A DNA stretch of 60,616 bases, from NCBI GenBank assembly GCA_026415655.1, contig JAOAGR010000001.1, forward strand, positions 1 to 60,616, given 5' to 3'. This document shows positions 12,063 through 15,045 of the stretch, one piece after another. The position numbers and the translations under genes were made by a program. The notes beneath the pieces were generated by a model. It worked only from the letters and a program-made list of their open reading frames with translations, was not told where the DNA came from and searched no databases. Positions within the stretch are counted from its first letter, which is position 1; each line of letters begins with the position of its first letter. The stretch is from Candidatus Dojkabacteria bacterium (GTDB lineage: Bacteria > Patescibacteriota > Dojkabacteria > JAOAGR01).

Positions 12063-13403
12063 TCATGGACAGGGTACATTGCGCAGTAGATGCCAATACT
12101 GGGTTACTATTCCATTTGGTTTTCCGTCACTTCCTACATGTACTAAAACAGCATAATATGCAGGATCATTTTTAAAAGTGCCGTTATAATCATAACAACC
12201 ATATCTAATATACCCATCAGACATAGCGTATATTGGTGCACCATGATAGGACGCGATATCAACCGGACCTCCATGTGCTACTGATGATTGAGTGATCACG
12301 TAGTTAAACATTGGGGGATGAGAGACTAAATTATTATTTGCTCTTCCGGGCAGATATGTATCTGCATTTTTTCTTTGACCATTTACTATGACTTCTAGGT
12401 GCAAATGTGAGCCTAGAGAAGGGTATTGTACAGGATCATAGTAGTACCAATTTGGTCCCAAATGACTACAATAATTATTTGTTCTTGGTACTGGATTTGC
12501 AGGATAATAGCTACATGAAAAACCTGTTCTTCCTTGAAATCCGATCACCTGTCCTGCCTTTACAAATGCTCCTGATGGCGGCATGACAGCAAGTTTTAAT
12601 CTATATTCGCTTAGTTCCCGTTCTAATCTTTTCATTTCTTCAGAGAGTTGAGCATCTTTAGAAAATAAATCTTTTTGATTATTGAGCGATTCCTGGATTT
12701 GTTTGTCTTTGTTTTGTTTTTGCCATTCGAGTGCCTGTTGTTGCATTTTTAATCCTTCGTATTTTGATACTGTTTCTTCTTTGATTTTGTTTATTTCATC
12801 TTTTTTTTGAATTATTGTTTGCTTTTTTTCTTGTAATTCATTTTCAAATGTAATAATTTCTTCTTTTTTGTTTTTAATTATTGTTGTTATTGCTTTTTGT
12901 TTTTCTTGCTCTAATATCGCATTTTCTAGACTTGTGGATTCATAAAGTAAACTTGGTGAGCTAATCTGGCGTTTGTATAAAAAGTTTATCGAAATTTCAT
13001 ATTCGTTTTGTAATCGTTTTAATTCTTCATTTAATTCTTTTATTCTATCTTCAAGTTTTGCTTGTTCATCTATGAGAATACTGAGTTCTAATTCTAATTT
13101 TTCTATCTCCAAACTTAGTGTCTCTATCATTATTTCGTTTTGTCTAATAGTAGAATCTAAAACGACCTTTTGCTGCTTGAGACTAGCTTGTTTTTGAGCT
13201 TCTGACAATATAGTATTTTTTATTTTCTCTCGCTCTTCTTTTAATTTCCTCAATTTTTCTTCGGTTTCTTTTAGTTTTTGTTGCATTTCACTTGTTGCTT
13301 GTGCGTGTACAAATTGGCTAGTTATGACATTTACATGTAGTAAAATCATTACAACAACACCTATTAAAATAAAAATTATTTTTTTTGCGGTTCTGTTTAT
13401 CAT
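12063..13403 (-). CDS. secreted coiled-coil M23 peptidase with permuted domain order (EnvC/PcsB-like role)
   Basis: A 446-residue protein: signal peptide ending near FVHAQA (about residue 36), a long Glu/Lys-rich coiled coil (about 40-275), then M23 elements. The order is unusual. The half that normally comes last (AGQVIGFQGRTG, then GSHLHLEVIVNG at about 330) comes first. The half that normally comes first (HGGPVDIAS at about 377, GAPIYAMSDGYI, then TQYWHLL at about 437) forms the C-terminus. All expected zinc and catalytic residues (H..D, H in WHL, HLH) are present. Four Cys lie in or near the insertions. Immediately downstream of FtsX, it should be the peptidoglycan hydrolase controlled by FtsEX. 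Confidence 0.8.
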   Translation of the reverse strand: MINRTAKKIIFILIGVVVMILLHVNVITSQFVHAQATSEMQQKLKETEEKLRKLKEEREKIKNTILSEAQKQASLKQQKVVLDSTIRQNEIMIETLSLEIEKLELELSILIDEQAKLEDRIKELNEELKRLQNEYEISINFLYKRQISSPSLLYESTSLENAILEQEKQKAITTIIKNKKEEIITFENELQEKKQTIIQKKDEINKIKEETVSKYEGLKMQQQALEWQKQNKDKQIQESLNNQKDLFSKDAQLSEEMKRLERELSEYRLKLAVMPPSGAFVKAGQVIGFQGRTGFSCSYYPANPVPRTNNYCSHLGPNWYYYDPVQYPSLGSHLHLEVIVNGQRKNADTYLPGRANNNLVSHPPMFNYVITQSSVAHGGPVDIASYHGAPIYAMSDGYIRYGCYDYNGTFKNDPAYYAVLVHVGSDGKPNGIVTQYWHLLRNVPCP

Positions 13404-13406
13404 TTG

Positions 13407-14369
13407 CTATTTACTAACATATTTTATTACAGCTATAAAGCTACTCATACAGCCCAATATTGCACCGGCCAATGAAACATATAAATAAAACTGTAATATA
13501 AGATAAGAATCAATTTCAGGCCATGGTACAGTGCCGATTATACCGAGTATTTGATTGATAGAATTTGGATAATAAGTAGTAATCAAATAATACGATGCCC
13601 AAATCATGCTTACAGATATTATTCCACTGATTAGACCATATAATGCACCATTTATAATGAATGGTGTTCTTATAAACCAACCCTGTGCGCCGACTAGATT
13701 CATTATCTCTAGCTCCTTAGAATGATAACCTATACTAAGTTTTGTAGTAATAAATATAAGTATCATGGATACCGTTGCCAATAGCCCTGTTGCCACTATA
13801 CCTGCGATTTGCACAAATTCATTAAGAGATCTTATAAAGTCTGCCTGTCGAATGTCAAAATTATACCAGCCAAATTTGTCTATATTTTGTTTATCAACAA
13901 GAGATAAAAATTCTTCATCATTTTCTAAATAACTAATAAGTTTTCTCAGCGTTTCTTGGCTTTCTCCTCTGATAAACGCAATTCGTGGTAAAACACCTTC
14001 TAACACAGAATCATCAACTTCAATATCTTTAATTTTTTCTTTAAAATCACGTTTTGAAAATTCATAGTCTTGTAAATTAACATCAACATTTAGTCCCGAA
14101 CTCTTTATCTTGTCTAAGAATTTCTGCCCTTCTTCATCGGTCAAGTTGCCTTTTAGATAAATAATCAACGGGGGTTTAGAATCTATATATTCAATTATTT
14201 TGGCAGATCCGTAATAAAGAATCAAACACAAAATAATTATAAAAAAAGAAAGTGTCATAACCGTCATCGAAGCTATACTAAGCCCAATATTTCTCCACAT
14301 GTATTGGAAAGCAGTCTTAAAAAGTCTAGCAATTATAATAAAAATGTTTGTTTTATAGTTCATAGCCAC
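13407..14369 (-). CDS. ftsX: cell division protein FtsX
   Basis: A 320-residue permease-like protein with the FtsX layout: a short cytoplasmic N-terminus, helix 1 at about residues 28-53, a roughly 110-residue extracellular domain, then three C-terminal helices with the conserved ELEIMNLVGAQGWFIRTPF loop before helix 3. It partners FtsE to transmit ATP hydrolysis to a cell wall hydrolase outside. It starts at GTG 14369 or ATG 14363; both overlap the end of ftsE, showing translational coupling. Four bases separate its stop from the M23 hydrolase gene. Confidence 0.9.
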   Translation of the reverse strand: MAMNYKTNIFIIIARLFKTAFQYMWRNIGLSIASMTVMTLSFFIIILCLILYYGSAKIIEYIDSKPPLIIYLKGNLTDEEGQKFLDKIKSSGLNVDVNLQDYEFSKRDFKEKIKDIEVDDSVLEGVLPRIAFIRGESQETLRKLISYLENDEEFLSLVDKQNIDKFGWYNFDIRQADFIRSLNEFVQIAGIVATGLLATVSMILIFITTKLSIGYHSKELEIMNLVGAQGWFIRTPFIINGALYGLISGIISVSMIWASYYLITTYYPNSINQILGIIGTVPWPEIDSYLILQFYLYVSLAGAILGCMSSFIAVIKYVSK

Positions 14370-15045
14370 CTATATAATCTCTTATAACTCTTCCGTTTTC
14401 AAATGCAATAACACGCTTATTAAGTGAATTTACCACTTCGACATCATGAGTTGCAACAATCACCGTTGTACCCCAATTATTGATTTTGTTTAACAATTGT
14501 ATTATATCCCATGTATTGCTCCTATCCAGATTACCTGTTGGTTCATCTGCTATGAGCATTAATGGTTCATTTACTACTGCTCTTGCGATTGCAGCTCTTT
14601 GTTGCTCACCTCCAGACAAAGTTTTAGGAAAAGCATCTTTTTTATCAAGTAAACCAACCAAATCTAGTACATATTCTACAGCTTTTTTTATCTCTCTTGT
14701 GGGTTTACCGCATACCTCGAGAACAAATGCAACGTTTTCCCAGACAGTTTTAGTCTCTATTAGCTTAAAGTCTTGAAAGATAATTCCAATCATTGATCTA
14801 TACTTTGCTAGTTTACTTCCAGAAAGTTTATCGACCCTTATTTTTGAATTAAATATTATTTTTCCTGACGTTGGTTTTTCCTGTTGTATTGCTAATTTCA
14901 CAACCGTGGATTTACCAGCGCCAGAGGGACCTACCAAAAATACAAATTCCCCTTCGTCTATGGCAAAGGTAACATCGTCTAATGCGTATTTGTCTTTATA
15001 TCTTTTTGTTACGTTTTCAAAGATTAACACAGTATTTTTATTCAA
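14353..15045 (-). CDS. ftsE: cell division ATP-binding protein FtsE
   Basis: A single ABC ATPase domain of 230 residues with GPSGAGKST (Walker A, about residues 38-46), LSGGEQQR (signature), LIADEPTGNLD (Walker B) and ATHDVEVV (H-loop). Length and motif set match FtsE, and its overlap with ftsX settles the call. The track start is TTG 15045; GTG 15030 is an alternative. The upstream gene overlaps its start by eight bases, so division and envelope genes here are tightly coupled. Confidence 0.92.
   Translation of the reverse strand: MNKNTVLIFENVTKRYKDKYALDDVTFAIDEGEFVFLVGPSGAGKSTVVKLAIQQEKPTSGKIIFNSKIRVDKLSGSKLAKYRSMIGIIFQDFKLIETKTVWENVAFVLEVCGKPTREIKKAVEYVLDLVGLLDKKDAFPKTLSGGEQQRAAIARAVVNEPLMLIADEPTGNLDRSNTWDIIQLLNKINNWGTTVIVATHDVEVVNSLNKRVIAFENGRVIRDYIGGYEL

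Follow-up and report, generated by a model that had tools for sequence, protein, structure and literature searches.

Our study supports a genuine circular permutation of the M23 peptidase domain encoded beside ftsEX in Candidatus Dojkabacteria, based upon sequence comparison and structural modelling of a gene in a 60,616-nucleotide stretch of one genome (hereafter the window) and of its relatives. What is new is the topology of the domain and its fixation across the phylum; the enzyme family and its role in division are already known. To our knowledge, no permuted M23 domain has been described, and our search of 5.4 million openly accessible papers found no description of such a domain or of an FtsEX partner in the CPR. 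It is highly probable that the permuted protein has kept its catalytic competence and acts under FtsEX control as an extracytoplasmic peptidoglycan hydrolase in the patescibacterial division complex, and we infer zinc binding, endopeptidase activity and binding of the coil to FtsX each in its own right. The protein is likely to be the main hydrolase of the division machine and is conserved across dozens of families. It offers a natural experiment on how FtsEX switches on a hydrolase, in which the attachment point of the coil has moved and the rest has been kept. Because their halves are permuted, such genes score poorly or piecemeal against standard M23 models, and many Patescibacteria probably have an under-annotated or misannotated division hydrolase.

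Half order and rotation of the domain

The permuted gene starts 3 nt past the ftsX stop codon, and ftsX in turn overlaps ftsE in an ftsE-ftsX operon (Table 1). Beyond ftsE, on the upstream side, two unassigned genes and an FtsA/PilM-like gene run in the same direction, and the downstream neighbour of the permuted gene is a convergent UvrD/PD-(D/E)XK gene. The 446-aa product runs from a putative signal peptide through a coiled coil of ~235 residues to a C-terminal M23 domain. Predicted secretion, an N-terminal coil, a C-terminal catalytic head and a gene encoded with ftsE-ftsX are the traits of an FtsEX partner, although the linkage counts only as supportive, since some known partners are encoded elsewhere.

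Table 1. Features of the permuted M23 gene and the adjoining ftsEX genes in the window
Feature	Position	Strand	Basis
Permuted M23 gene, FtsEX-linked coiled-coil protein, 446 aa	12063..13403	-	ORF and translation
Putative N-terminal signal peptide or membrane helix, residues 1-36 (..VHAQA-TS)	13296..13403	-	Sequence reading
Coiled coil, residues ~37-272, presumed FtsX-binding hairpin	12588..13295	-	Heptad-rich; weak SMC matches
Half A, canonical C-terminal half (VxxGxxIGxxGxTG..HxH), residues ~275-353	12345..12581	-	Profile 56.8 bits; AF2 strands
Half B, canonical N-terminal half (H..D...DG...YxH), residues ~360-440	12084..12326	-	Profile 70.2 bits; Pfam M23 6-52/96
ftsX	13407..14369	-	NF038347/TIGR00439 E ~1e-37; Pfam FtsX
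ftsE	14353..15045	-	TIGR02673 FtsE E 5e-79

An initial annotation, made from the letters of the window, had read the two halves of the domain in swapped order, and this is plain in the translation. The HxH half (AGQVIG..GRTG..GSHLHLEV; H333/H335) lies N-terminal to the AHGGPVDI..GAPIYAMSDG..YWHLL half (H377, D382, H438), giving HxH - H..D - YxH in place of the M23 family order of H..D - YxH - HxH. The annotation had also held that the protein ends just past WHLL; the stop codon indeed falls 8 residues beyond H438, and none of the three downstream frames holds a second HxH half, which rules out a frameshift or a lost C-terminal half downstream. Members of M23 are recognized by the zinc motifs H(x)nD and HxH (PMC9662197), which are H377/D382 and H333/H335 in the window protein. 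The catalytic histidine of the YxH strand, which canonically precedes HxH by ~30 residues, is present as YWH438 in the permuted position. As a correction to the annotation, the first zinc motif of the window protein is spaced H-x4-D rather than the usual H-x3-D.

In native order, the Pfam M23 profile (PF01551) matched the domains in two inverted fragments, whereas exchanging the halves, a check put forward with the annotation, gave one contiguous and higher-scoring match. The native fragments comprised profile positions 58-96 on the N-terminal side and a second stretch in the orthologue L019, and positions 6-52 on the C-terminal side in the window protein. The full window protein in native order scored 25.1 bits against a Pfam M23 cut-off of 28.7, compared with 29.7 bits for the isolated domain and 37.1 bits after rotation (profile 6-78). 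Rotation likewise raised the scores of the orthologues L019 (64.3 to 75.4 bits, profile 2-96 of 96, E 4e-21), L009 (41.5 to 47.8 bits, 1-96 of 96) and L023 (37.7 to 44.1 bits, 13-89). As the domain is contiguous only after rotation, it was filed as a permuted M23 variant and not as an ordinary member.

M23B/LytM proteins such as LytM, lysostaphin and ShyA share the H..D, YxH and HxH motifs, and rotated sequences align to them nearly end to end, the alignment of rotated L019 to these three and to others being unbroken. However, they have the canonical order, whereas the window protein has its halves swapped and ends right after YxH. A profile built from 80 permuted domains matched solved M23 structures in two abutting stretches of opposite order. 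In 9gy1, residues 24-95 corresponded to profile positions 82-161 and residues 96-142 to positions 24-69, with the boundary at 95/96. These abutting stretches place the cut in the loop that separates the YxH and VxxG strands, at Pfam positions ~53-58.

Distribution and origin of the permuted order

The same order, which the annotation had proposed be sought in other CPR FtsEX loci, was found in 79 further verified loci, making a permuted set of 80 that spans at least 36 families and 70 genera of Patescibacteria/CPR. An arrangement common to so many families is real and old rather than a glitch. A homologue was present in 28 of 39 relatives, with identical order in all that were readable. A profile search of 240 genomes sampled evenly across the phylum gave a match covering both halves in ~64, and the regions taken from most of these (L143-L200) carried the permuted gene in every case, whereas a contrast locus (L201, from genome G001) had the canonical order. 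Among the genomes with a permuted copy were another MAG of Candidatus Dojkabacteria (L063) and a Gottesmanbacteria genome (L073); the L063 protein has the same sequence as one from a genome in the window's class. Among 59 permuted genes checked, ftsX lay upstream on the same strand in 52, within 100 nt in 44, with a median gap of 4 nt.

In family f29 (L184, L193 and L195), the permuted gene lies away from ftsX. G001, a single-contig genome of the window's own family, had no FtsX match even at an E value of 10 and no permuted M23, and FtsEX may have been lost in its genus.

No permuted M23 was found outside the phylum, where all M23s examined were in the usual order, at search thresholds that very divergent copies could escape. 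Full-length matches to the permuted profile numbered 0 of 201 in Chloroflexota (with one half match) and 0 of 198 in Bacteroidota; 4 of 300 matched in Bacillota, none of them permuted. A permuted domain was likewise absent from ~75 loci of Cyanobacteria, Spirochaetes, Clostridia and other groups and from 80 viral loci. Dojkabacteria and Gottesmanbacteria genomes served as the positive control, and there this profile was matched over its full length. Two candidates were rejected: a Ruminiclostridium locus (L064) proved to have two canonical M23 domains in tandem, and a match on a Thermomicrobium roseum plasmid was in canonical order.

A tree of the concatenated halves (133 sequences, 112 columns) needed three changes between permuted and canonical labels, of which well-supported branches force only one. 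A tree holding all permuted rows together was not rejected (p-AU 0.82) and exceeded the free search by 25 lnL, and the phylogeny is compatible with one origin of the permutation. Tandem duplication followed by truncation is a plausible route. In L154, L165 and L181 (family f57), a permuted and a canonical M23 gene stand side by side after ftsX, possibly a trace of the permutation's birth.

Catalytic residues, predicted fold and alternative readings

Among the 80 aligned domains, the first histidine of HxH was present in 80, the second in 79 and the zinc aspartate in 80, and both the tyrosine and the histidine of YxH were found in 79 of 79. The first zinc histidine occupied its usual position, D-4, in 61 domains; in the other 19 it was missing or shifted (to D-5 in the window, and to D-6, D-10 and further positions elsewhere), so that some of these may have lost activity or recruited another ligand. 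The protein ended 0-4 residues past the YxH histidine in 66 of 80, and this sharp C-terminus, together with the complete set of residues, argues for a single domain that is predicted to be active.

The strongest alternative, although an unlikely one, is that the domain is permuted but catalytically dead, serving as an EnvC-like amidase activator held by FtsEX and not as a hydrolase. The best-known M23 protein bound to FtsX, EnvC, is without catalytic residues and works by activating amidases (PMC7668044), and the window protein is itself among the 19 members without the first zinc histidine at its usual place. However, across 80 diverse sequences the HxH, aspartate and YxH histidine residues vary little or not at all, which would not be expected of a dead protein, and the loss of catalytic residues that typifies EnvC is not seen here. 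Furthermore, the same slot in other CPR genomes carries CHAP or C39-like heads, which are hydrolases.

Given window residues 262-446 and the 80-sequence alignment, AlphaFold2 (AF2) returned a model with a mean pLDDT of 80.9 and a pTM of 0.79, with blocks above 90 in both halves and low confidence mainly in an insert peculiar to the window protein. A pTM of this size needs confident relative placement of both halves, and the model thus supports a single fold formed by the two. Structure prediction of this region had been suggested alongside the annotation, whose claim of a permuted fold now gains support from the rotated profile match, the inverted matches to solved M23s, the phylum-wide intact catalytic residues and this one confident fold. 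Order-dependent Foldseek searches of the PDB, with the full-domain model and with a model lacking the first strand, returned no M23, a result that neither supports nor refutes the permutation because the program depends on strand order. Against a viral library, Foldseek gave one match, to a 1191-aa protein (E 6.5e-4).

It is very improbable that the site is instead completed between molecules, half A of one chain pairing with half B of a second in the FtsEX complex. FtsX acts as a dimer and the linker between the halves is long in some members, both of which would suit such an arrangement, but in compact members, L154 and L165 among them, the linker spans only ~6 residues, and the AF2 model of the monomer is confident. 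Slightly less credible again is the reading of the halves as separate remnants of two decayed tandem M23 domains with no common site. Tandem M23 domains or genes do exist, in L064 and beside the permuted gene in L154, L165 and L181, and a tandem state is also a likely route to a permutation; the same complementary halves, catalytic residues and cut point are nevertheless kept in 36 families, and AF2 yields one fold. An assembly or binning error in the window gene, named with the annotation as what could overturn it and conceivable in a draft genome of 14 contigs, has a negligible probability, since the same order occurs in 79 other loci, single-contig genomes included.

The insert in the window protein (12414-12515) comprises ~33 residues between GRTGF and GSHLHL, is rich in Y, P and N with two cysteines, and is missing in most relatives; AF2 confidence is low there. 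In a subgroup comprising L153, L173, L185 and L061, SHRGxGWPGG[IL]D replaces H-x3-D and the sole nearby histidine lies ten residues before the aspartate, so the zinc ligand may have moved.

Proposed coupling to FtsEX

Under the preferred reading of an active, permuted hydrolase, the chain would come into the domain at the loop by which the YxH strand of a canonical M23 leads on to the VxxG strand, building the HxH half first, then a new linker that bridges the former C- and N-termini, and the H..D/YxH half second, and would stop where a canonical domain goes on. Both halves would close into a single M23 barrel containing one zinc site (H377, D382 and H335) as well as the catalytic H333 and H438. 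By analogy with EnvC and PcsB-type partners, the coil would bind FtsX and the head would cut peptidoglycan, with ATP hydrolysis by FtsE transmitted through FtsX and the coiled coil so that the site is exposed or oriented to cut septal peptide cross-links.

The EnvC protein of Escherichia coli resembles the window protein in its signal peptide, coiled-coil hairpin, C-terminal M23 domain and association with FtsEX. However, its domain is in canonical order and has no catalytic residues, and its groove is occupied by a restraining-arm helix, which is displaced when FtsEX motion passes through the coil (PMC7668044). The window protein retains its catalytic residues, and its coil is attached elsewhere on the domain. 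PcsB, CwlO and RipC of Gram-positives and mycobacteria likewise combine an FtsX-bound coil with an active hydrolase head, and the Pfam family CC_PcsB matched the coils of several orthologues, although not that of the window protein itself. The heads of these proteins are CHAP or NlpC/P60, where the window protein has a permuted M23. Circularly permuted NlpC/P60 domains, YaeF-like and LRAT-like, are described by Anantharaman and Aravind (2003), as cited in PMC6403190; they provide a precedent for a permuted peptidoglycan hydrolase fold, with a fold and chemistry unrelated to M23.

The annotation had further suggested that a permutation alters the coil's hold on the active site, and this is plausible from sequence composition. 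Over the 30 residues before the domain, the fraction of G, S, P, N and T was 0.20 (sd 0.08, n=86) in permuted proteins, compared with 0.35 (sd 0.15, n=40) in canonical M23 proteins beside FtsX. With fewer linker-type residues, the coil helix seems to continue straight into the domain. As its entry point has moved to the loop ahead of the HxH half, it would enter at the active-site edge and not via a flexible linker, so that the permutation would couple helix to site edge. We tentatively propose, as a possibility that falls somewhat short of an even chance, that a single ancient M23 permutation in Patescibacteria fused the coil to the strand beside HxH, and that, because of this direct fusion, FtsEX motion would act on the active site itself and not by lifting a restraining arm.

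In other Patescibacteria, the gene just after ftsX encodes a similar coil with another head, which was CHAP in L208, L217, L222 and L232, C39-like in L215 and L223, and canonical M23 in L210-L214, L218, L225 and L228. Such varied heads in the same slot support a coil plus an interchangeable hydrolase head. Two further ftsX-adjacent coiled-coil proteins, from the window's class (L202:2699-3952 and L203:2635-3930, family f5), have heads that match no Pfam hydrolase family and that resemble, by eye, a C39-like cysteine peptidase.
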